This document shows positions 22,100-50,841 of a stretch of DNA of 64,000 nt, piece by piece. The position numbers were made by a program, and so were the translations under genes. Below the pieces are notes generated by a model. The model ran no database searches. It saw nothing but the letters and a program-made list of their open reading frames with translations, and was not told where the DNA came from. Every line of letters begins with the position of its first letter. The stretch's first letter is position 1. The stretch is from Melioribacteraceae bacterium (GTDB taxonomy: Bacteria; Bacteroidota; Ignavibacteria; Ignavibacteriales; Melioribacteraceae). Where the stretch lies: the NCBI GenBank assembly GCA_021739765.1, contig JAIPBD010000001.1, forward strand, positions 1-64,000, given 5' to 3'.

Positions 22100-22804
22100 T
22101 TGAAAGTACTTTATTTATCCCTATTTATAGTTTTATCTGATCAAGCAACAAAGTTATTGATTAAAGGATTTTCCATTCCATTCCTGGGCTTTGAGTATAC
22201 AGGAATGGATTATGCTTCAAGTATTAATATTATCGGGGATTTCTTCAAATTCACTTTTGTTGAAAATCCCGGCATGGCTTTTGGGATTGACGTAGGTATC
22301 GAAGCAAAACTATTACTATCGATATTCTCACTTATTGCAAGCATTGGAATATTTTATTATCTGTACCAATCCAGAGATCAGCACATTGGATTTAGAATTG
22401 CATTAGCCTTAATATTAGGTGGGGCTGTCGGTAATTTAATAGACCGATCACTTTACGGGGTTTTCTATGGCTACGCTCCTTTGTTCTATGGGAGAGTGGT
22501 TGATTTTCTAAATGTTGAATTTTTTGATTTCACGATATTTGGAAAAACATTTGATCGTTGGCCAATTTTTAATATTGCTGATTCAGCCGTAACCATAGGT
22601 GTTGTGATACTTTTATTTTTTAATCATTCTAACCACAAGAAGAATGATGCCGCGACCGAAAATGAAGAGAAGATTGATAAATTAGAAATGGAGGCCTCAC
22701 CTGTGGAGGAGCCTCAAAATCAAACAGAAGATAATGTCGAAGATAATTACAGAGAAAAAAATAGTTCTGACGATAACGGAAGGGAAGAAGAAAGAAAGAC
22801 TTGA
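22100..22804 (+). CDS. lspA: Signal peptidase II (lipoprotein-specific)
   Basis: A 234-residue inner-membrane aspartyl protease that removes signal peptides of prolipoproteins. Visible motifs are SDQATK, VENPGMAFGI, the catalytic Asp in GRVVDFLNVEFF, and FNIADSAVTIGVVIL with the second Asp. It starts at TTG 22100 with AAGGGA upstream; no ATG fits. The normal protein ends near residue 175. The remaining about 55 residues (HKKNDAATENEEK onward) are a highly acidic, disordered cytoplasmic tail, the last part of which overlaps rluD. Substrates in this window include the lipoproteins at 4509 and 27364. Confidence 0.93.
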   Translation: MKVLYLSLFIVLSDQATKLLIKGFSIPFLGFEYTGMDYASSINIIGDFFKFTFVENPGMAFGIDVGIEAKLLLSIFSLIASIGIFYYLYQSRDQHIGFRIALALILGGAVGNLIDRSLYGVFYGYAPLFYGRVVDFLNVEFFDFTIFGKTFDRWPIFNIADSAVTIGVVILLFFNHSNHKKNDAATENEEKIDKLEMEASPVEEPQNQTEDNVEDNYREKNSSDDNGREEERKT

Positions 22805-40432: not shown

Positions 40433-41280
40433 AGAATAAGTCTTTTTGCACAATCTAAATCGTTAAGATCGAATTGGATTAAGGATAATTCATTCCCATG
40501 ATGAGCTGCGTTAAAAGAATAAGTATCACCAATTCTATCAGACCAGGAACCGGTTATTTTTGTCGATTCATGAATGTGTCCGTGCAGAGTCAATAGTGGC
40601 TGTTTCTCTTCGATAAATTTCTTGATTGCAATCGATCCGACGTGTACATCCACTTTCACAAAATCGATTACTTTGTTATCTAATGCGGCTCTATCCAAAT
40701 TTGTTTTGTAAGGTGGTGAATGGAATAGAAAAATTGACTTTCTCCTATCTTCGCCGATCGTAAAAAATTCCAAATCTATTTTGATTGTTGAGAACTTTGC
40801 ATCATTTTCCTCAATTTCAACAGTACGAATTCCTTCTTCCGGACTGACACATCCCGGATCAACAAAGCGTGAAACATCATATTTTTCCCAGTCTTTTAAA
40901 CGGAATGGGGATGGAGGACAGTATGAATAACCACAAATTAAGTAATCACCAATTTGTATCTTTTTCAGATGACTGTATTTCCAGAGTCCTTTTACTTCAC
41001 CTTCAATTAGCTTCGTTTCTTCATTTTTTGGGTCGTCATTACCCATAATAATAAATACATCAGGATAGTCCGATTGCATCAGTTTTTTTAATTTCTGAAA
41101 CTCCGGGATCAAGAAATTGTCGTAAAAATTTGGCTCCGAGTTTTTTGAGAATCTGGAAAGGTTTCCGCCTAAATCTCCACCGATAAATATCAAATTTGGC
41201 TTTACTGATTTGATTCGTTCGAATAGCTTTGAGTAGTTTGCTAAGTTACCGTGTAAGTCTGAGACAAAAAATGCTAACAT
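40429..41280 (-). CDS. Calcineurin-like metallophosphoesterase
   Basis: A 283-residue cytoplasmic phosphoesterase. Metal motifs are in order: FVSDLHGN (D-x-H), IFIGGDLGG (G-D), IIMGNDD (G-N-D instead of GNHD), FLFHSPPY, and TLHGHIHES (G-H-x-H). The substrate is unknown. ATG 41280 begins the conserved MLAFFVSDLHGN; the longer frame to 41325 adds nothing conserved. No Shine-Dalgarno site is visible. Its stop overlaps by 4 bases the end of the convergent ATP-grasp gene. Confidence 0.85.
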   Translation of the reverse strand: MLAFFVSDLHGNLANYSKLFERIKSVKPNLIFIGGDLGGNLSRFSKNSEPNFYDNFLIPEFQKLKKLMQSDYPDVFIIMGNDDPKNEETKLIEGEVKGLWKYSHLKKIQIGDYLICGYSYCPPSPFRLKDWEKYDVSRFVDPGCVSPEEGIRTVEIEENDAKFSTIKIDLEFFTIGEDRRKSIFLFHSPPYKTNLDRAALDNKVIDFVKVDVHVGSIAIKKFIEEKQPLLTLHGHIHESTKITGSWSDRIGDTYSFNAAHHGNELSLIQFDLNDLDCAKRLIL

Positions 41281-41397
41281 ATTTACATAAATTGTTTGAT
41301 CAAATATAGTGCTGATTAGCACCAAATAAAATAAGGGATTTCGAGATTGACATTATCAATTTTTATAGGGATTTTTGTTGATATTAATTTTAAGAAA

Positions 41398-41460
41398 ATG
41401 TTAGGCACACATCGCACATATCATCATGATAATAACTTTCAGCGGAAAGTGTCGGTGTGA
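41398..41460 (+). CDS. Histidine operon leader peptide
   Basis: A 20-codon reading frame, M-L-G-T-H-R-T-Y-H-H-D-N-N-F-Q-R-K-V-S-V, with three His codons (41410-41412, 41422-41427), two of them adjacent, just upstream of hisG. It overlaps RNA segments 1 and 2 of the attenuator. A ribosome stalled at the His codons would cover segment 1. No clear Shine-Dalgarno site precedes the ATG. TTGACA at 41347-41352 could be the -35 of the operon promoter, but no good -10 was found. Confidence 0.7.
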   Translation: MLGTHRTYHHDNNFQRKVSV

Positions 41461-41512
41461 TTTAAATCGAAATTAGGATATCACAAAACCCCGGCACTTG
41501 TCGGGGTTTTTT
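41406..41512 (+). promoter_or_regulatory. his operon transcription attenuator
   Basis: Four pairing segments can be read. Segment 1 is CACACATCGCAC (41406-41417) and segment 2 is GTGTCGGTGTG (41449-41459); they form CACAC:GTGTG, CG:CG and CAC:GTG. AAGTGTCGG (41447-41455) also pairs over 9 bases (one G-U) with CCGGCACTT (41491-41499), segment 3, making the antiterminator. Segment 3 with 4 makes the terminator: AAAACCCCGGC (41485-41495) and GTCGGGGTTTT (41500-41510), loop ACTT, followed by T. Low His charging would stall the ribosome on segment 1 and free 2:3. Confidence 0.8.
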
Positions 41513-41530
41513 GCTTTAAAGGAGAATTTA

Positions 41531-42400
41531 ATGTCGCAAGAAAATTTGAAATTGGCTATTCAGAAAAAAGGTCGGTTAACAGAAAAATCGCTGCAAATAC
41601 TTAGAAATTGCGGACTGGATATTGATAATTATTCGGATCGGTTAATGATTTCCGCAAGAAATTTTCCGTTGGATATTTTATTTCTGCGGGATGACGATAT
41701 TCCTGAATACGTTCAAGATGGAGTTGCGGATATTGGAATTCTTGGCGAAAACGTTGTCGTTGAGAAAAAAGCAAATATTGAAATTGTTAAAAAACTCGGA
41801 TTCAGCAGATGTGAACTTTTGATTGGAGTACCGGAAAATAAAACCTTAAACGAAGTTAAGGACTTAAATGGTAAAACCATCGCGACTTCGTATCCGGTAA
41901 TTACTCAAAAATTTTTGGATGATAACAAGATTACGGCAAAAATAGTGGAGATCAGCGGATCAGTTGAAATTACTACTTCACTTGGCGTTTCAGATTGTAT
42001 ATGCGATATTGTTTCCACCGGAAATACTCTCAGAATGAATAAATTGAAAAAATCATTTCCGGTATTTAAATCAGAAGCGGTTTTAGTCGCATCAAAATCA
42101 GTTGAATTAAATAGTGAGAAGAATCAACTATTGGCCGATTTATTAAAAAGAATTTCGTCAGCCTTAAATGCAAAACATTCTAAATACATTATGATGAACT
42201 CTCCGAAAGACTCGGTCGAGAAAGTACTTCAAATTATCCCTTCATTAAAAAGTCCAACAGTTCTCTCATTGGCCGATGAAAAATCTGTCGCGATTCACGC
42301 GGTTATTCCATCCGAGAAATTTTGGAAGATAGTTGATGAACTTAAGGCCGCCGGTGCAAGCGGAATATTATTATTACCAATAGAGAACATGATTTTATGA
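41531..42400 (+). CDS. hisG: ATP phosphoribosyltransferase, long form
   Basis: A 289-residue enzyme for the first step of histidine synthesis (ATP plus PRPP). Catalytic domains include LAIQKKGRLTEKSLQIL, GVADIGILGENVV and the PRPP loop ISGSVEITTSLGVSDCICDIVSTGNTL. A C-terminal ACT-like regulatory domain (about 215-289) makes it the HisZ-independent, feedback-inhibited long form. ATG 41531 is chosen because AAAGGAG is ideally placed and the sequence begins there; the frame continues upstream without homology, through the attenuator hairpin. Stop overlaps hisD by 4 bases. Confidence 0.96.
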   Translation: MSQENLKLAIQKKGRLTEKSLQILRNCGLDIDNYSDRLMISARNFPLDILFLRDDDIPEYVQDGVADIGILGENVVVEKKANIEIVKKLGFSRCELLIGVPENKTLNEVKDLNGKTIATSYPVITQKFLDDNKITAKIVEISGSVEITTSLGVSDCICDIVSTGNTLRMNKLKKSFPVFKSEAVLVASKSVELNSEKNQLLADLLKRISSALNAKHSKYIMMNSPKDSVEKVLQIIPSLKSPTVLSLADEKSVAIHAVIPSEKFWKIVDELKAAGASGILLLPIENMIL

Positions 42401-43689
42401 GAGTATTCAATGTATCCGATTTAAGTGAAGACGGATTAAATGACATTTTAAAAAGACCATTAATTGATTCGGACAAAATTTTTGCGGATGTAAAAAATAT
42501 TCTTGATGATGTTAAAGTCAACGGTTTAAAAGCCGCTCAAAAATATGCTTCCCGTTTCGATGGATTCGAAAAGGAATCAATAAAAATTTCCGAGCAAGAA
42601 TTCGAAATTGCCGAGCAAAGGCTGGCACAGAAAGTTAAAAATGCAATTTTATTCTCTAAAGAAAACATCGAAAAATTTCATTCAATTCAAGTTCCAAATA
42701 ACTATTCCATTGAAACTCAAGCGGGTGTGAATTGCTCCAGAGAATTTCGCGCGATAGAAAACGTTGGCCTTTACATTCCCGGCGGAACCGCAATACTGCC
42801 TTCAACTGTTTTGATGCTGGGGATTCCGGCAAAATTAGCGGGTTGCAAAAGAATTGTTGCTTTTTCTCCTTCAAAAAATGGTGAAATAAGTGACGCTGTT
42901 TTATTCGCGGCTAAAGTTTGTGGAATTGATGAATTTTACAAACTCGGCGGCGCCCAGGCCGTTGCTCTATTTGGGTATGGATCGAAGGAAGTTAAAAAGG
43001 TTGATAAAATATTCGGTCCCGGAAATCAATACGTGACCGCGGCGAAAAGTTTAATTAGTATAGATCCGGAAGGATGCGCAATCGATATGCCCGCAGGACC
43101 AAGCGAAGTTTTGGTAATTGCTGATCAAAATGCTAACCCCGATTTTATTGCCTCCGATTTACTTTCACAAGCCGAGCATGGAATTGATTCACAAGTGCTT
43201 CTTTTTTCAGATAGTAAATCACTTATAAAAAGTGTGAGCAAAAAATTAATCGAGCAATTGGAAAAGTTACCTCGCCGCGAAATTGCCGAAAAGGCACTTA
43301 ATAATTCCTTCGCTTTGAAGGTCAGCTCGATTGATGAAGCTATTGATTTGAGCAATAAATACGCACCCGAACACCTTATATTAAATTTTAATGATGCAGA
43401 ATCAGCTTTGAAAAAAATTACAAATGCCGGTTCCGTTTTTGTCGGCTCGTTTACACCGGAAAGTGCCGGGGATTATTCATCAGGTACAAACCATTCACTC
43501 CCGACCAATGGTTATACAAAAGTATTTGGTGGAGTAAGTGTCGAATCGTTTATGAAACAGATTACTTTTCAGCAAATCTCGAAAGAGGGTTTGTTAAATC
43601 TTGCCGATTCCATTATAACACTCGCTGAAGAAGAAGGATTGGACGGACACGCAAACGCGGTAAGAATTAGGTTGGAAAATGGATATTGA
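42397..43689 (+). CDS. hisD: Histidinol dehydrogenase
   Basis: A 430-residue zinc enzyme oxidising histidinol to histidine in two NAD steps, the end of the pathway. Family blocks are NVGLYIPGGTAILPSTVLMLGIPAKLAGC, KIFGPGNQYVTAAK, IDMPAGPSEVLVIAD, LLSQAEHGIDSQ (zinc ligands Gln/His), and SSGTNHSLPTNGYTKVFGGVSVESFMK. The start overlaps the hisG stop (ATGA) and its end overlaps hisC by 11 bases, so translation is coupled. Confidence 0.96.
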   Translation: MRVFNVSDLSEDGLNDILKRPLIDSDKIFADVKNILDDVKVNGLKAAQKYASRFDGFEKESIKISEQEFEIAEQRLAQKVKNAILFSKENIEKFHSIQVPNNYSIETQAGVNCSREFRAIENVGLYIPGGTAILPSTVLMLGIPAKLAGCKRIVAFSPSKNGEISDAVLFAAKVCGIDEFYKLGGAQAVALFGYGSKEVKKVDKIFGPGNQYVTAAKSLISIDPEGCAIDMPAGPSEVLVIADQNANPDFIASDLLSQAEHGIDSQVLLFSDSKSLIKSVSKKLIEQLEKLPRREIAEKALNNSFALKVSSIDEAIDLSNKYAPEHLILNFNDAESALKKITNAGSVFVGSFTPESAGDYSSGTNHSLPTNGYTKVFGGVSVESFMKQITFQQISKEGLLNLADSIITLAEEEGLDGHANAVRIRLENGY

Positions 43690-44722
43690 TAATTTAGTTA
43701 GAGAAAATATAAAAAGGTTGAAGCCCTACACTTCGGCCAGGGATCAATTTGAAAAAGGGATTTTGCTTGATGCAAACGAAAATGGATTAGGTTCAGTTGT
43801 TGAATCAAAACTTGAATTAAACCGATATCCCGACCCCAAACACAAAGAAATCAAAATTCATCTATCTAAAATTACCGGAGCAAAATCTGAAAATTTGTTT
43901 ATCGGAGTTGGTTCGGATGAAATTATTGATTTGATGATAAGAATATTTTGTGAGCCTACTGTCGATAACCTGTTAATTCTTGAGCCAACTTACGGGATGT
44001 ACAAAGTTTCAGCAGATATAAATAATGTTCACGCGATTTCCGCAAATTTATCCCCCGATTTCCAGATTGATTTTGCTGAAATTGATTCCAAAATAAAATC
44101 GAACACGAAACTGATATTTTTATGTTCGCCGAATAATCCTACCGGAAATCTGTTAAGAGTTGATGATATTCGAAAATTATGCCAATATCAAAAATCCATT
44201 ATAGTAGTTGATGAGGCTTATATTGATTTTACCCCTGAAGGCAGTGTTTTGGAATTGATCGGCGAGCACACAAATTTAGTTGTGATGCGCACACTTTCTA
44301 AAGCTTGGGGCCTAGCCGGTATTCGAGCGGGGTATTGTGCAGCTGATCCGTTAATAATCAATTATTTGTATAAAGTTAAAGCACCCTATAATTTGAACAA
44401 ACTTACCGGTAGAACGATTATTAGCGCTTTAAACAACAAAGAACAAATGGAAAAATTCCGTTTCATAATTGTTGAAGAAAGGAAACGATTTGTAAATGCC
44501 ATTTCGAATTTGCCCGGAGTAATAAAAATTTTTCCGAGTGACGCGAACTTTCTACTTGTAAAATTTTCGGATGCCAATACGGTTTTTAATAAATTGATAG
44601 AGAAAAATATTATCATCAGAAACCGTTCAAATATGTTGGGTTTAGAAAATTGCTTGAGGATTACAATCGGCAATAAAAGTGAAAACGACCAGTTGATTAA
44701 TGCTTTGAAAGAGATTTTATGA
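43679..44722 (+). CDS. hisC: Histidinol-phosphate aminotransferase
   Basis: A 347-residue fold type I PLP aminotransferase making histidinol phosphate. Seen are LLDANENGLG, NRYPDP, GVGSDEIIDL, LCSPNNPTGN, IVVDEAYIDF (PLP Asp/Tyr) and MRTLSKAWGLAGIRAGY with the PLP Lys, then NCLRITIG with the substrate Arg. It overlaps hisD by 11 bases and hisB by 4. Confidence 0.95.
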   Translation: MDIDNLVRENIKRLKPYTSARDQFEKGILLDANENGLGSVVESKLELNRYPDPKHKEIKIHLSKITGAKSENLFIGVGSDEIIDLMIRIFCEPTVDNLLILEPTYGMYKVSADINNVHAISANLSPDFQIDFAEIDSKIKSNTKLIFLCSPNNPTGNLLRVDDIRKLCQYQKSIIVVDEAYIDFTPEGSVLELIGEHTNLVVMRTLSKAWGLAGIRAGYCAADPLIINYLYKVKAPYNLNKLTGRTIISALNNKEQMEKFRFIIVEERKRFVNAISNLPGVIKIFPSDANFLLVKFSDANTVFNKLIEKNIIIRNRSNMLGLENCLRITIGNKSENDQLINALKEIL

Positions 44723-45600
44723 AAAAAATATTTATTGATTCACAATTACTACAGCTTGGTTTCCCACAAAGTCGTGGTCTGATTTCTTCATTGCTAAAAA
44801 TGAATGAGCGGGCTTTCTCAATTTATACCGAGCGAATGGATTCATTGACTGAAACAATACTGCAATCGGAAAATATTGAAATCAGCAGCGCAGCGAATAA
44901 TGATAAATGTGATTTTTCACTTAAGTTTTTAGATGGTAAAATTCAGCTCATAAATTCAAACTTCGCTGAAACTGTTTTTAACAATCTAATGGACGCGATT
45001 GAATCACTCCTAAGAAATGAACGATTTGCGGAAATTTCTAGAAAGACGAAAGAGACTGATATCTCAGTAAAAATATTTTTAGATGGGAAAGGGGAAAACG
45101 AGATCTCGACCGGAATCGGTTTTTTTGATCACATGTTGGAACAAATCGCGCGGCATGCAAATGTTGATCTTTTTATCAACACGAAAGGTGATTTGCACAT
45201 TGATGAGCATCATACCGTTGAAGATACGGGTATTGCATTGGGCGAGGCGATTAGCAAAGCACTCGGTGATAAAAAAGGAATTACCCGGTACGGCTTTTTC
45301 CTCCCGATGGATGAAACGATCGCGCAATGTGGCTTAGATTTCAGCGGAAGAATCTTTCTGAATTTCAAATGTAAATTTGAACGCGAAAAAGTGGGGGATT
45401 TTCCAACTGAATTAACAGAAGAATTTTTCCGTGCTTTAGCGTCAGGTATGAAAGTGAATTTATATTTACGTTCAAAAGGGAAAAACGACCATCACAAAAT
45501 CGAATCGATGTTCAAAGCTTTTGCAAAATCATTGAATGATGCCGTTAGGTTTGACGAACGGACTCAAAATAGATTACCTTCCACGAAAGGAATGTTATGA
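44719..45600 (+). CDS. hisB: Imidazoleglycerol-phosphate dehydratase with unusual N-terminal extension
   Basis: A 293-residue protein whose C-terminal part (about 103-293) is a complete dehydratase: GIGFFDHMLEQIARHANVDL, DLHIDEHHTVEDTGIALGEA and KNDHHKIESMFKAFAKSL supply the Mn ligands. The N-terminal about 100 residues are not the HAD phosphatase of bifunctional HisB (no DxDGT, no zinc loop) and are too long for a normal monofunctional enzyme (about 195 residues). Their role is unknown. The histidinol-phosphate phosphatase step therefore has no candidate within this operon. ATGA overlaps on both sides. Confidence 0.93.
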   Translation: MKKIFIDSQLLQLGFPQSRGLISSLLKMNERAFSIYTERMDSLTETILQSENIEISSAANNDKCDFSLKFLDGKIQLINSNFAETVFNNLMDAIESLLRNERFAEISRKTKETDISVKIFLDGKGENEISTGIGFFDHMLEQIARHANVDLFINTKGDLHIDEHHTVEDTGIALGEAISKALGDKKGITRYGFFLPMDETIAQCGLDFSGRIFLNFKCKFEREKVGDFPTELTEEFFRALASGMKVNLYLRSKGKNDHHKIESMFKAFAKSLNDAVRFDERTQNRLPSTKGML

Positions 45601-46184
45601 TCGCGATAATTGATTACGGAGCCGGAAACACAGCCTCTGTTGCGAACGCTCTTGAGGAACTAAATGTTAAATTTAGAATCGCTAAGACAGAAGGAGTAAT
45701 TTGCAAAGCGGAAAAAATTATTTTTCCAGGTGTCGGTCATGCGGCATCCGCTGTAAGGAATCTCCACATATTGAATTTATTTAATCTTTTAAGAATTTTA
45801 AAACGACCATTGCTGGGCATCTGTTTGGGAATGCAATTGTTCTCTGAAAAATCTATTGAAGGCGACACAGCTTGCCTGGGAGTTCTACCCGTTGATACGA
45901 AAAAATTTGATGAAACAAAAGTAACGGTTCCTAATATGGGATGGTCGAAAGTGAAATCGATTAAAGAGAGTAAATTGTTTGAAGGATTGCAGAATGAGGA
46001 ATTCTTCTATTTTGCCCATACTTATTTTGTGCCGATAAATGAATTTACAATCGCGACCGCGAACCATGATGTGAATTTTACGGCGGCCATCGAAAAAAAC
46101 AACTTTTACGGAGTTCAATTTCATCCGGAAAAATCCGGGAAAGCGGGGCTTCAAATTCTCGAAAATTTTGTTGAAAAATGTTAG
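45597..46184 (+). CDS. hisH: Imidazole glycerol phosphate synthase, glutaminase subunit
   Basis: A 195-residue class I glutamine amidotransferase that feeds ammonia to HisF. DYGAGNTASVANAL at the start, the oxyanion strand IIFPGVGHAAS, nucleophile Cys in LLGICLGMQLFSE, and the His/Glu pair in GVQFHPEKSG are all intact. It overlaps hisB (ATGA) and hisA (7 bases). Confidence 0.95.
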   Translation: MIAIIDYGAGNTASVANALEELNVKFRIAKTEGVICKAEKIIFPGVGHAASAVRNLHILNLFNLLRILKRPLLGICLGMQLFSEKSIEGDTACLGVLPVDTKKFDETKVTVPNMGWSKVKSIKESKLFEGLQNEEFFYFAHTYFVPINEFTIATANHDVNFTAAIEKNNFYGVQFHPEKSGKAGLQILENFVEKC

Positions 46185-46894
46185 CAATACCCGCTATTGA
46201 TATCCTTGATAATAAAGTAGTCCGGCTTATAAAAGGGGACTACAATCAAAAAAAAATCTATGCTGAATCGGTTATAGAACAAGCCAATACTTTTTATTCG
46301 TTTGGTTTTAAGAGAATACATATTGTTGATTTGGGTGGCTCCCGCGATGGTCGAATTAATGTTTTAGAATCACTTTCCGAGATAAAGAATAAAATCGATA
46401 TTGAGATTGAATTCGGTGGCGGAATTCGCTCCATTGATGATATTCAAAATTTAATCGAAATAGGTATTGATCAAATAATTGTCGGGTCGTTTTCAGTCAG
46501 TTCCAAAGAAGATCTCGTTGAGTCTTTCCAAACGATTGATCCTTCAAAAATCATAATCGCTGCAGATGTAAAAGAGGAAATGATTGCGATAAAAGGTTGG
46601 ACCGAAAAATCGAGTATTTCGCTGTTCGAGCATATTCAATTTTATTCGGAATGTGGAGTTAATTCTTTTCTTTGCACGGATATTGCGAAGGACGGTTTAC
46701 TGATGGGGCCTTCAATCAATCTTTATAAAAACGTGTTGGCAAAATTTCCAAATATCGATTTGATTGCCTCGGGAGGAGTTTCTTCAATGAACGATTTACA
46801 TGAATTGGAGAGAGCCAATTGCAAAAAAGCGATTGTCGGTAAAGCTATTTATGAAAATAAGATCACATTAAAGGAGTTATCAAAGTTTGCCTAG
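46178..46894 (+). CDS. hisA: ProFAR isomerase
   Basis: A 238-residue TIM barrel performing the Amadori rearrangement of ProFAR to PRFAR. Catalytic Asp lies in IPAIDILDNKVVRLIKGDYNQKK; the second is in FLCTDIAKDGLLMGPS. The phosphate motifs EFGGGIRS and LIASGGVSS are both present, as expected of the two-fold repeated HisA/HisF barrel. Overlaps hisH by 7 bases and hisF by 8. Confidence 0.95.
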   Translation: MLAIPAIDILDNKVVRLIKGDYNQKKIYAESVIEQANTFYSFGFKRIHIVDLGGSRDGRINVLESLSEIKNKIDIEIEFGGGIRSIDDIQNLIEIGIDQIIVGSFSVSSKEDLVESFQTIDPSKIIIAADVKEEMIAIKGWTEKSSISLFEHIQFYSECGVNSFLCTDIAKDGLLMGPSINLYKNVLAKFPNIDLIASGGVSSMNDLHELERANCKKAIVGKAIYENKITLKELSKFA

Positions 46895-47642
46895 CAGAAG
46901 AATAATACCATGCCTCGATGTTAAAGACGGACGGGTAGTAAAAGGAACAAATTTTGTTAATCTGCGAGACGCAGGTTCTGCGGTGGAATTAGCCCGACGT
47001 TATTACGAAGAAGGAGCCGATGAATTGGTATTCCTCGATATTACCGCAACTGTCGAGAAGCGTAAAGCGCTAATAAAACTTGTTGAAGAGGTTGCAAAAG
47101 TTATTCGAATTCCTTTTACGGTAGGCGGAGGAATATCTTCAGTTGAAGATATTGATGTTTTATTAAAAGCTGGAGCTGATAAGGTTTCCTTAAATTCTGC
47201 AATTGTTAAGAATCCGGAATTAATCTCAGAGGCCGCTACAAGATTTGGCAGTCAAGCGGTGGTTGTCGCGATTGACATCAAAAAAATTGATGATGAATAC
47301 AAAGTTTTTGTTAAAGGTGGTCGCGAAAATACTTTTATCGAAGGATTTGGCTGGGTTAAGAAAACAGTGGAACTTGGAGCCGGGGAATTATTGATTACAT
47401 CGATGGATAAAGACGGCACAAAAGACGGATATGATTTAGATTTTTTATCTAAAGTTAAAGAAATGGTAACCGTTCCAATTATAGCATCGGGTGGAGCGGG
47501 AAATCAGCAACATTTTGCGGACGCTTTTAATTCCGCTAATGTAGATGCGTGTTTAGCCGCAAGTTTATTTCACTATCAAGAAATGAAAATTTCTGATCTA
47601 AAAAATTATCTTAAAAGTGTAAACGTGGATATGAGAATATGA
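46887..47642 (+). CDS. hisF: Imidazole glycerol phosphate synthase, cyclase subunit
   Basis: A 251-residue TIM barrel that closes the imidazole ring, releasing AICAR. Key parts are RRIIPCLDVKDGRVVKG with the first catalytic Asp, PFTVGGGISS, SLNSAIVKNPELI, and LLITSMDKDGTKDGYDLD with the second Asp. It starts at TTG 46887; AAGGAG (46871-46876) lies upstream and the product begins with the expected position, so the rare start is well supported. Overlaps hisA by 8 and hisIE by 4. Confidence 0.94.
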   Translation: MPSRRIIPCLDVKDGRVVKGTNFVNLRDAGSAVELARRYYEEGADELVFLDITATVEKRKALIKLVEEVAKVIRIPFTVGGGISSVEDIDVLLKAGADKVSLNSAIVKNPELISEAATRFGSQAVVVAIDIKKIDDEYKVFVKGGRENTFIEGFGWVKKTVELGAGELLITSMDKDGTKDGYDLDFLSKVKEMVTVPIIASGGAGNQQHFADAFNSANVDACLAASLFHYQEMKISDLKNYLKSVNVDMRI

Positions 47643-48247
47643 AATTTCCTAATATTGATGATCTTAATTTTGAAAAATTAAATGGATTGCTTCCGGCAAT
47701 TGTCAGCGATAGTGAATCCGGACAAGTCTTGATGCTTGGTTTTATGAACCAAAACGCTTACGAACAAACTACTAATTCCGGGAAAGTAACATTTTTCAGT
47801 CGAACAAAAAATCGACTATGGACTAAAGGTGAAACTTCCGGTAACTTTTTGAATGTTGTAAATATTAAATCCGACTGCGATAATGACACAATTCTTATCT
47901 CAGCTCAGCCACTCGGAAACACATGTCATCTTGATCAATTTTCTTGTTTTGGAGAAGAAAAGAAACGAACAGCAGATTTTCTAATCCATTTAAATGATCT
48001 CGTAAAGGATAGAAAGAAAACGCTCCCAGAAGGTTCATATACGACCGAACTTTTTAAGTCCGGTGAAAACCGAATAATTCAAAAAGTTGGTGAAGAGGCG
48101 ATTGAAACTGTAATCGCCGCAAAGAATTATAGGAATGAATTAATTGAAGAATCATCGGATCTGGTATTTCATCTTCTTGTCTTACTGGCTGAAAAGGAGA
48201 TTGATTTAATGGATATTGTCGAGAATCTAAAGAAACGGCACAAATAA
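47639..48247 (+). CDS. hisIE: Bifunctional phosphoribosyl-AMP cyclohydrolase / phosphoribosyl-ATP pyrophosphatase
   Basis: A 202-residue fusion performing steps 2 and 3 of the pathway. The HisI half (1 to about 105) has VLMLGFMNQNAYEQT, FFSRTKNRLWTKGETSGN and the zinc Cys pattern in DCDNDTILISAQPLGNTCH. The HisE half has LPEGSYTTELFKSGENRIIQKVGEEAIETVIAAK and EESSDLVFHLLVLL with pyrophosphatase acidic residues. Last gene of the his operon (order G-D-C-B-H-A-F-IE, as in E. coli). No clear terminator follows. Confidence 0.95.
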   Translation: MKFPNIDDLNFEKLNGLLPAIVSDSESGQVLMLGFMNQNAYEQTTNSGKVTFFSRTKNRLWTKGETSGNFLNVVNIKSDCDNDTILISAQPLGNTCHLDQFSCFGEEKKRTADFLIHLNDLVKDRKKTLPEGSYTTELFKSGENRIIQKVGEEAIETVIAAKNYRNELIEESSDLVFHLLVLLAEKEIDLMDIVENLKKRHK

Positions 48248-48308: not shown

Positions 48309-50345
48309 TCAAATTATAATTCTTGCAACAATTCCACCAATCAAGAACGCTGTAAACCAGGTCCCGAACCAGATTGCCCAACCTTCTTTCCAACCTCTTT
48401 CTTTTAACATAACGACAAAAGCTGCAATACAGGGCACAAATAATGTAATTGTAATTATTGCCACTGTAATTTGTTCGATAGTCATATTCATATCAAATAA
48501 TCCCGCAGCCCCAAAATCACGTCTTACCATTCCCATCACAAATGCAGTCGAAGCCTCTTTTGGTAACAATAACCATTTTGTAGTAAGGGGAGCCAGGACT
48601 TCTTGAATGTAGAATAACAAGCCTGTAATATCGAGAATTCCAACACCGAGAGCGCCGACAAAAAACCATGCCCCGGCTTCTTGCATAAATCCCCACGAAC
48701 GAAACGCGGTTTTTTTCAAAACATTATCAAATCGGGGAATATTTATGTTTGGAAGATCAATCAACAATGGAGAACTTTCTCCGGGAAGGGATTTATTTAG
48801 TATTGTTGAAAGAACAACTAAAACCGAAAAAATTGTAACAACATAAATTATTAACGGCATCGGTCCGGCCCCACTAAGCAGTGCCGCGATTACAGCCAGT
48901 TGAGCTGAGCAAGGTATTACAAATTGTAGAATGGCGGTCACAATAGATCTTTCACGGTTTGTTCCAAGTATTCGAGTAGTAACATTTGCCATTGTGATAC
49001 AACCAAAACCAAGCATAATAGGAATTACAGCTTTACCGTTTAATCCGATTTTATTTAATGTTCGATCCAACATCGTAGCTAAACGAGGCAAGTATCCGCT
49101 GTCTTCAAGAAGAGCCATCACGAAGTAGAAGCCCATTACAAGAGGCAGCAACAAGAATATTAAATATGTTACCGTCATTGTAATAACACCGAATTCACCA
49201 AAAAACACCCTTACGATTGGATTTCCGAATTGAAAATCCGTGCTGCTTCCATTCTGAGATGAAAAATCCTTGAATTCATTTTTCAAATTTTCATCTGAGT
49301 TCATTCCATCCGGGAATAAAAATTCTTTTGATGAGATGATTTCATCATTCGAATCAACAATATCAACCGTGATAGTCGTTTCACTAAAATCCGCGATAAA
49401 TGATTTTACATGATATTCAAATAAATTTACACCAATTTCAGTTTCAGTAAATCCAACAACTCGTTGCGAAATGAAATCACCAATAAAAAAGTAGAGTAAA
49501 ATTAGTATAAAAGCCAGAATCGGAATACCTGTGAGTGGTTGAAGTGACCATCTTCCGATCTTATTAAAAAGTTCACCTTTTTTTGAGTCCTCAAATTCAA
49601 CTGCGTCAACAATTTCACTTACTCTGTTCCGTCGTTCAATATAAATTTTTTCACGTTTATCAGCGGATCCGGGATATGTATTATTCTTTTTCGAGATGTC
49701 TTCATCACCTTCAAGAATCAACAATGCTTCCGCCTCCGATGCCGCCTCATGCATTGTTTGCTGAATCATGATCTTAATATCAAAATTCCTTTGTCCGGTG
49801 GCTGCACTGGCTATTGCGAGATCAAGCTGATCAAATCCTTGCTTATTAACTGCGGAAGTTTCATATACCTCAACCCCAAGCAAATTTGAAAGCTTTGCGG
49901 AATCAATTTTTATTCCTTTCCGCTTAATTTCATCCATAAAGTTGAGAACGACAGTGACTTTTTTACCCATCTCAATAAGTTGCAGGGTTAAGAATAAATC
50001 CCGTTCAAGGTAAAGTGCGTTTACCACATTGATGACTTTATCCGCTTTGAGGATAATATCCCGGGCAACTTTTTCTTCCTCATTAAATCCTGAAACTCCA
50101 TACACACCCGGTGTATCGATTATTTCAATTTCTTTATAATCTGCTTTTGAGATGCTGACAGTTGTTCCCGGGAAATTGGAAACATCCACATACAATCCGC
50201 TGAAATGGTTGAAAAAAACAGATTTCCCAACATTCGGGTTTCCGCATAAAACAACTGTTTCTTTTTTGTCTGAAATTAAATTAGTGAGAAGACTCAAATT
50301 ATCCGCTGATCTTGAGTCTCTTGAGGTTGAATCAGAATTGTTCAT
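48309..50345 (-). CDS. feoB: FeoB-type ferrous iron transporter, variant core
   Basis: A 678-residue protein. The N-terminal G domain has GNPNVGKS, NFPGTT, DTPGVYG and NFMDE as the GTPase signatures; helices and a polytopic membrane part follow. In the core the usual GCNVPAI is replaced by GFGCITMANVTTRILGTNRER and the second gate reads VIPCSAQL rather than SCSARLP. A soluble insertion of about 90 residues (VDIVDSNDEI ... FSSQNGSS) lies after the first membrane helix. It is probably a Feo transporter of the variant class with altered selectivity filter. Co-transcribed with feoA (8 bases apart). Confidence 0.85.
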   Translation of the reverse strand: MNNSDSTSRDSRSADNLSLLTNLISDKKETVVLCGNPNVGKSVFFNHFSGLYVDVSNFPGTTVSISKADYKEIEIIDTPGVYGVSGFNEEEKVARDIILKADKVINVVNALYLERDLFLTLQLIEMGKKVTVVLNFMDEIKRKGIKIDSAKLSNLLGVEVYETSAVNKQGFDQLDLAIASAATGQRNFDIKIMIQQTMHEAASEAEALLILEGDEDISKKNNTYPGSADKREKIYIERRNRVSEIVDAVEFEDSKKGELFNKIGRWSLQPLTGIPILAFILILLYFFIGDFISQRVVGFTETEIGVNLFEYHVKSFIADFSETTITVDIVDSNDEIISSKEFLFPDGMNSDENLKNEFKDFSSQNGSSTDFQFGNPIVRVFFGEFGVITMTVTYLIFLLLPLVMGFYFVMALLEDSGYLPRLATMLDRTLNKIGLNGKAVIPIMLGFGCITMANVTTRILGTNRERSIVTAILQFVIPCSAQLAVIAALLSGAGPMPLIIYVVTIFSVLVVLSTILNKSLPGESSPLLIDLPNINIPRFDNVLKKTAFRSWGFMQEAGAWFFVGALGVGILDITGLLFYIQEVLAPLTTKWLLLPKEASTAFVMGMVRRDFGAAGLFDMNMTIEQITVAIITITLFVPCIAAFVVMLKERGWKEGWAIWFGTWFTAFLIGGIVARIII

Positions 50346-50353
50346 TTTGCTTT

Positions 50354-50638
50354 CTAGTGGATATAAATATCGATTTGCCTTGCCAGATCTGAACCGATTG
50401 CAATTTCTTGACGGTGTTTTTGTAAAATTATTGTTCCGCCCGGTAATCTTTCAAGACATTCGGCATTCTGTCCTTTTAGTAGGCCTAACCTGATAAGCTG
50501 AGATCTGATATTGCCTTCCGGGAGTTGAGTAATTGTGAGGAAATTACCTTTTTTTGCATTATTCAAAGTGGCATTTGATATGCCTGTTGAATCATTTACA
50601 AAGTTTTCTATTTTTCGTTCGGCAACTAAAGTATTCAT
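50354..50638 (-). CDS. feoA: FeoA-like protein
   Basis: A 94-residue (alternatively 100) SH3-like protein. The FeoA core is readable: GNFLTITQLPEGNIRSQLIRLGLLKGQNAECLERLPGGTIILQKHRQEIAIGSDLARQIDI. FeoA helps or regulates FeoB. ATG 50638 follows AAGAGA at usable distance; GTG 50656 would add six residues. The N-terminal about 30 residues are not part of the usual domain. Confidence 0.85.
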   Translation of the reverse strand: MNTLVAERKIENFVNDSTGISNATLNNAKKGNFLTITQLPEGNIRSQLIRLGLLKGQNAECLERLPGGTIILQKHRQEIAIGSDLARQIDIYIH

Positions 50639-50841
50639 ATAAACAATCTCTTTCACTTATCTTAAAAGTGTTATGTAATTCTATAAATAGTTATGCACAA
50701 TATACATCGATTATATATGTATTACAAACAAAATCTTGGTGTCTTATTATAAAAAACTTGCACTATTATCACCTTTTTGTACTTTTGCATTGTGCTATAA
50801 ATTTAATTCAAATGAACTAATTAAGTAAAAAAGGAGTTTTT

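Follow-up and report, generated by a model that had tools for sequence, protein, structure and literature searches.

The his operon of this Melioribacteraceae bacterium is very probably controlled by a ribosome-mediated transcription attenuator, in which the supply of charged histidyl-tRNA would set the expression of the operon. Comparison of the nucleotide sequences of related genomes shows the parts of the element, their conservation, the conservation of both alternative pairings, and the geometry of the leader stop codon. The element was found in a window of 64,000 nucleotides (the whole stretch of DNA that was analyzed; contig JAIPBD010000001.1), which comes from a genome of 4.54 Mb in 37 contigs.

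The his operon and its putative promoter

Judged from its open reading frames, the his operon downstream of the attenuator region is complete, with the gene order hisGDCBHAFIE. The long form of hisG (41531 to 42400, plus strand) scored above the cut-offs of NCBIfam models TIGR00070 and TIGR03455 and is followed by hisD, hisC, hisB, hisH, hisA, hisF, and hisIE (42397 to 48247, plus strand), all seven of which matched an NCBIfam model above its own cut-off. The genes from hisG to hisIE form a single run to 48247, in which neighbors from hisD to hisIE overlap by a few bases. A Shine-Dalgarno-like AAAGGAG (41518 to 41524, plus strand) precedes hisG, and a divergent gene encoding a calcineurin-like phosphoesterase lies upstream of it. 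An N-terminal extension of about 100 residues in HisB (44719 to 45030) precedes the IGPD domain, gave no Pfam match up to an E value of 0.1, and is shorter than the matching part of the bifunctional HisB profile NF003937. Located 3' of the operon on the minus strand (48309 to 50656) are FeoB-like and small FeoA-like frames, which were named by eye from their translations.

Promoters of the Bacteroidota type have the consensus TTGnnn, followed at 16 to 20 nt by TAnnTTTG. The window contained a -33-like hexamer, TTGACA (41347 to 41352, plus strand), and, 17 nt after it, a -7-like box, GATTTTTG (41370 to 41377, plus strand), which agrees with five of the six specified positions of TAnnTTTG and so comes near the exact pattern without passing it. 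Across the order Ignavibacteriales, the exact pattern of TTGnnn and TAnnTTTG separated by 16 to 20 nt was present within 90 nt before the leader at 49 of 98 loci, compared with 1.0 expected. The transcript would start near 41383, some 15 nt upstream of the leader ATG. When the region was scanned for plain sigma-70 promoters, the best plus-strand site fell elsewhere than these two boxes, at 41282 to 41310, and five sites were reported on both strands compared with 3.9 expected by chance. The leader frame extends upstream to a TTG at 41347, which was rejected as an earlier start because it falls inside the putative promoter; the ATG at 41398 was kept for that reason.

Leader peptide, terminator, and alternative pairings in the window

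The leader peptide frame, MLGTHRTYHHDNNFQRKVSV, occupies 41398 to 41460 on the plus strand, with its ATG at 41398 and its TGA stop codon at 41458 to 41460. It comprises 20 codons, of which three encode His: codon 5 (CAT, 41410 to 41412) and the tandem codons 9 and 10 (CATCAT, 41422 to 41427), which are the predicted stall site. No Shine-Dalgarno site is visible for the leader, just as the original prediction had said, and the motif given above belongs to hisG.

The frame overlaps an RNA with four segments, all on the plus strand. Segment 1 (41408 to 41417) pairs with 41449 to 41459 to form the 1:2 duplex (-14.1 kcal/mol). Segment 2 (41447 to 41459) is the antiterminator strand and overlaps the leader stop codon; its bases 41447 to 41455 pair with 41491 to 41499 to form the 2:3 duplex (-15.7 kcal/mol). 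Segment 3 (41485 to 41499), identified by the terminator scan, the pairing test, and the duplex computation, comprises the 5' arm of the terminator and part of its loop, and segment 4 (41500 to 41512) comprises the 3' arm, which ends at 41510, and a T run at 41507 to 41512. The 3:4 duplex joins 41485 to 41496 with 41499 to 41510 (-19.5 kcal/mol), and the intrinsic terminator as a whole (41485 to 41512) has a stem of 11 pairs at 41485 to 41510, followed by the T run. The frame with its three His codons and the overlapping four-segment RNA had been proposed beforehand; both were confirmed in the sequence, all three pairings were computed as duplexes, and the proposed segment borders proved right to within a few bases.

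A simple scan of 40800 to 41900 returned two terminator-like sites, the window terminator among them, compared with a mean of 0.6 in shuffles, and a 141-nt region folded more stably than all of 200 shuffles (z = -3.25). For the complete transcript without translation, the most stable fold combined 1:2 with 3:4. When the cut transcript was folded, the 2:3 helix was lengthened by pairing of 41456 to 41461 with 41480 to 41485.

Leader translation, termination, and the response to histidine are steps that we infer, in the following form. Transcription would start near 41383. With enough histidine, the ribosome would reach the stop codon at 41458 and cover segment 2, which would leave segment 3 free to form the 3:4 terminator, and RNA polymerase would stop near 41512. 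With charged tRNA-His scarce, the ribosome would wait at 41422 to 41427, and segment 2 could then pair with segment 3 ahead of the synthesis of segment 4, such that the terminator would be absent and the operon would be transcribed from hisG onward. The 1:2 pairing is probably an early hairpin with a role in pausing or coupling, and it would be the default when the leader is untranslated.

Conservation across the Ignavibacteriales

hisG was found in 102 of the 165 genomes of the order. Three of these (G399, G407, and G481) were left out for want of the hisG start, which gave 99 upstream regions, including that of the window; a second, weak, stop-ridden match in G453 was ignored. A leader frame of 8 to 45 codons with at least three His codons was present upstream of hisG at 98 of the 99 loci, starting with ATG in 96 and with GTG in 2. 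The number of His codons per leader was 3 (10 loci), 4 (37 loci), 5 (34 loci), 6 (16 loci), or 9 (1 locus), and every one of the 98 leaders contained tandem His codons. The window leader, for which the original prediction had remarked on a count of just three His codons, is thus at the low end of the range of 3 to 9; one of its three His codons stands separate from the tandem pair.

A hairpin with a T run, read as a terminator, was present between leader and hisG at 96 of the 99 loci. The hairpin rule itself reported something at all 99, but the hairpins of L026 (-7.9 kcal/mol, overlapping the leader) and L087 (-6.8 kcal/mol) were weak and were excluded by eye. These two loci and L088, in which the leader was absent, were dropped from the pairing tests, leaving 96 loci. 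At L026 (genome G302), the leader upstream of hisG contains nine His codons, and a convincing terminator is absent.

Among 36 pairs of leaders from the same genus, which are not independent of one another, His columns were kept in 148 of 199 cases compared with 323 of 579 for other columns, and there were 42 silent changes between CAT and CAC. Substitutions in these pairs numbered 181, 201, and 248 at the three codon positions, a mild bias, which would be expected if these leader bases take part in RNA pairing as well. By eye, the sequence from leader to terminator differs widely among relatives, and the His codons recur.

Five loci from genera g20 and g22 of the order (L095 and L098 to L101) encode a HisG that is only 48 to 52% identical to that of the window. 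Their leader and terminator (of the CCCGTCTGAGTAAAT type, in which the peptide has QARW or RARWK at its end) are similar to those of family f30, which lies outside the class. From these sequence likenesses, the his operon and attenuator of the five loci may have moved together by horizontal transfer.

Tests of the alternative pairings

The antiterminator pairing, which is exclusive with the terminator, was kept while the sequence changed, as judged by a pairing test and a search for pairing partners. The pairing test was alignment-free, with no covariance model or multiple alignment, and compared duplex energies of segments from the same genome with those of permuted partners at the 96 loci. 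Segment 2 was taken as the stretch around the leader stop codon, segment 1 as the stretch before it, and segment 3 as the terminator 5' arm plus loop; segment 2 was placed relative to the stop codon in the permutation, per-genus, and masked-ribosome tests alike. The 2:3 duplex energy was -13.73 for matched compared with -10.93 for permuted partners (z = -12.0), and the 1:2 duplex energy was -14.44 compared with -11.23 (z = -11.8); none of 2,000 permutations was as low in either case. The 1:3 pairing, a control with no role in the model, showed no excess at the same 96 loci (-3.90 compared with -4.07; z = +1.3). With one locus per genus (48 genera), the z values were -7.7 for 2:3 and -9.6 for 1:2, with 0 of 5,000 permutations as low for each, and +1.9, again no excess, for the 1:3 control.

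Where the 2:3 helix varies, several kinds of standard pair occur. The pairs at offset 4, counted from the anchor, were A-T (33), G-C (18), T-A (11), C-G (5), G-T (2), and T-G (2), counts that lean toward pairing because the register is that of the best duplex at each locus; the permutation test allows for this choice of register.

Ribosome position and the folding model

A partner for the terminator 5' arm was also sought without restriction, in a search that began 40 nt upstream of the leader start. At 92 of the 96 loci the best partner lay wholly between 18 nt before and 11 nt after the stop codon, the footprint assumed for a ribosome positioned there, compared with 15.8 loci expected at random, and at 86 of the 96 its energy was more than 2 standard deviations below that of shuffles (window z = -2.41). 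Segment 2, sought near the stop codon, began 19 to 37 nt past the first base of the first tandem His codon at all 96 loci, so that a ribosome waiting at His should leave it free. With the stop codon at segment 2, a terminating ribosome would hide this segment and a ribosome waiting at His would free it.

In the folding model, transcripts ended before segment 4 and the bases under an assumed ribosome footprint of -18 to +11 around the A-site codon were blocked. The probability of 2:3 exceeded 0.5 at 93 of the 96 loci with the ribosome at the first tandem His codon, at 5 with the ribosome at the stop codon, and at 62 without a ribosome; the corresponding probabilities for the window were 1.00, 0.01, and 0.97. 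Within this model, masked folding at 91 of the 96 loci agreed with the stop-codon geometry, and a switch greater than 0.3 was absent in L031, L033, L037, L048, and L059. For L031, the closest relative of the window (HisG 78% identical), a ribosome at the stop codon still left a modeled 2:3 probability of 0.81.

The original prediction, in which a ribosome at His frees segment 2 to pair with 3, is consistent with the modeled 2:3 pairing at the 93 loci. In the equilibrium model of the window, 1:2 alone failed to block 2:3 in a transcript ending at segment 3: without a ribosome, the cut transcript folded 2:3 rather than 1:2. Since 2:3 forms without a ribosome both in the window and at 62 of the 96 loci, a default-off role of 1:2 is unsupported by the folding model. 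The main switch seems to be the position of the stop codon at segment 2. The complete window transcript formed the terminator at equilibrium in all five of the ribosome states modeled, and the switch must therefore be kinetic. Attenuators in general are assumed to decide kinetically.

Alternative explanations

Read alone, the window, with just three His codons and no Shine-Dalgarno site, would also suit a constitutive partial terminator that tunes or insulates the his operon, together with an untranslated frame that arose by chance. The relatives make this explanation very unlikely. A His leader is found at 98 of the 99 loci, and ATG frames with at least three His codons occurred at 96 of the 99 compared with 2.4% of 4,950 dinucleotide shuffles and with 2 of 99 regions read on the reverse strand (with at least four His codons, 87 of 99 compared with 0.5% of the 4,950 shuffles and 0 of 99). 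Because His frames recur in this way in relatives, a chance origin of the window frame is ruled out; the conserved complementarity of 1:2 and 2:3 and the stop codon held at segment 2 argue in the same direction. A riboswitch or T-box that senses histidine or tRNA-His directly, with the peptide incidental, is barely credible. PMC9413887 describes T-boxes that precede his genes in other phyla, but no Rfam family reached its gathering score in the leader region, and neither the T-box model nor His_leader (RF00514) gave a match up to an E value of 10 in 41300 to 41560. The 22 Rfam matches that were obtained up to that E value (rimP, PsrR1, STnc180, Leu_leader, Thr_leader, and others) were all below gathering score and were taken as chance or terminator-like. 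Direct sensing is also opposed by the wide variation, by eye, of the sequence between leader and terminator while the His codons recur.

It is more conceivable, although still unlikely, that the relatives work and that the window holds a decaying copy of much reduced sensitivity. With three His codons, the window leader is at the family minimum, a count found at 10 of the 98 loci; the promoter box is a near match, and the closest relative, L031, has three His codons, a GTG start, and no modeled switch. All of the pairings in the window are intact, however, and its modeled switch is clean (1.00 compared with 0.01). The ribosome-mediated attenuator is the reading that we prefer, and the comparison with relatives, in which the leader frame, the His codons, and the alternative pairings were all conserved, supports that part of the original prediction. 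The missing match to Rfam His_leader agrees with the suggestion that the element may be an independently evolved variant.

His leaders elsewhere in the phylum

hisG was found in 332 of 395 genomes of the phylum, of which 28 belong to the order. From the 304 others, 76 upstream regions were taken, which cover the better-scoring of the listed hits only, leaving lineages with a distant HisG unrepresented. A frame with at least three His codons, with GTG and TTG starts allowed and without a shuffle control, was present at 55 of 60 of these loci outside the order (55 genera for the 60), and a T-run hairpin of -9 kcal/mol or lower followed the leader start at 33 of the 60. Within the same class but outside the order, 2 of 8 loci (L109 and L111) had a frame with at least three His codons, and the element is thus not universal in the class. 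Such a frame was present at all eight of a further set of phylum loci (L027 to L030 and L112 to L115), of which L028, L112, and L115 have His-rich leaders and no terminator.

Families f32, f47, and f52 (15 loci among L142 to L201) have leaders with up to 11 His codons, and 9 of the 15 end in His. The RNA after the leader contained at least twice as much C as G at all 15 loci, compared with 0 of 98 in the Ignavibacteriales; mean contents were 25.0% C and 6.9% G in the three families and 13.5% C and 18.2% G in the Ignavibacteriales. By the same hairpin rule, none of the 15 loci had a T-run hairpin. At 10 of the 15, a -7-like box (relaxed pattern) ended 4 to 5 nt before the start codon, which means that the start of the leader in these families may lie at or close to the 5' end of the transcript. 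The Ignavibacteriales and several other families have an intrinsic terminator as the output stage. We tentatively suggest, as a possibility that falls somewhat short of an even chance, that His-leader control of hisG is widespread in the phylum with its output stage exchanged, and that the version in f32, f47, and f52 is His sensing and Rho dependent. In these families, a Rho loading site would be shielded by a ribosome that stalls close to the end of the peptide. A search of the open-licence literature for Rho-dependent His attenuation returned only a paper on another system.

Other leaders in the same genome and significance

A second locus in the source genome (L206; G000:C4, gene at 22714) contained a leader, MKSNTTYGKFYFFFWWWFTITFGQE, with three tandem Trp codons (WWW), upstream of a trpE-like gene that scored below the TIGR00564 cut-off (507 compared with 517.7 bits). 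Ahead of the gene lie a promoter-like TTGACA and a terminator (-18.9 kcal/mol), and no Rfam family matched the locus at gathering score. By its layout, L206 is a probable Trp attenuator and a counterpart in outline of the His element. At a third locus (L212; G000:C24:61900-63700), an Ile/Leu-rich frame ending in MLLLGIILISLLGIIILG lies about 100 nt before the putative start of an ilvD-like gene, which was named by eye and adjoins ilvB; leuA also lies downstream of the frame. A simple rule found no T-run hairpin close after this frame. A SAM riboswitch (RF00162, 88 bits) is present near the ilv genes on the minus strand (L212:346-458).

The his attenuator is conserved across an order that is known here mainly from metagenome-assembled genomes (MAGs), which make up all 26 of the named relatives (these entered none of the counts), and its presence suggests that histidine synthesis in the Ignavibacteriales is under RNA-level control. 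A covariance model could be built from the 98 diverged leaders, which also offer material for following how switches of this sort originate and alter their parts.

Comparison with known systems

The element resembles the enterobacterial his attenuator (hisL; RF00514) in its His leader peptide, its mutually exclusive hairpins, and its terminator ahead of hisG. The E. coli his leader has seven His codons, and the enterobacterial his attenuator has six segments. In contrast to hisL, leaders of the order have three to six His codons (nine at one locus), the element has four segments, and the stop codon is at the antiterminator strand. In a search of 162 genomes of the order, none had an RF00514 match over the gathering cut-off under strict filters that lose some weak matches; the five weak matches included one, in G479, immediately upstream of hisG. 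Among 14 controls for this search, E. coli and Corynebacterium glutamicum matched, and one of these two was over the cut-off.

The four-segment logic and the tandem pair of regulatory codons are like those of the E. coli trp attenuator. That attenuator has four segments, a tandem pair of regulatory codons, and a stop codon between segments 1 and 2, whereas the stop codon of the window leader is in or next to segment 2. Flavobacteriaceae belong to the same phylum as the Ignavibacteriales under GTDB. A structured element 5' of hisG in Flavobacteriaceae, without an Rfam hit, is described in PMC9723704, which suggests leader-peptide attenuation for amino acid operons; for this element, the available portions of that paper mention no His leader sequence, mechanism, or covariation, and they do not mention the Ignavibacteriales. 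Bacteroid-trp RNA (RF01692), which by its name is a trp-related RNA motif of Bacteroidetes (PMC2864571, as far as its available text goes), concerns Trp whereas the window element concerns His, and it gave no match at gathering score in the window or at L206.

PMC9413887 sets out predicted His attenuators for the Bacillus cereus group, Eubacteriales, and Erysipelotrichales, whose leaders carry runs of three to five consecutive His codons. They share with the element described here a short His leader, alternative terminator and antiterminator structures, and a prediction based on comparison, and they come from another phylum (Firmicutes). The gene order of the his operon here is the enterobacterial order as given in PMC8305728. 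That survey of his genes in the superphylum includes Ignavibacterium album and Melioribacter roseus, and in its accessible text attenuation is mentioned once, for enterobacteria, and "leader" never. The open-licence literature, to the extent accessible, returned no report of a his attenuator in the Ignavibacteriales. The type of attenuator is itself already known, and the element would work like that of the enterobacteria but has no match to RF00514.
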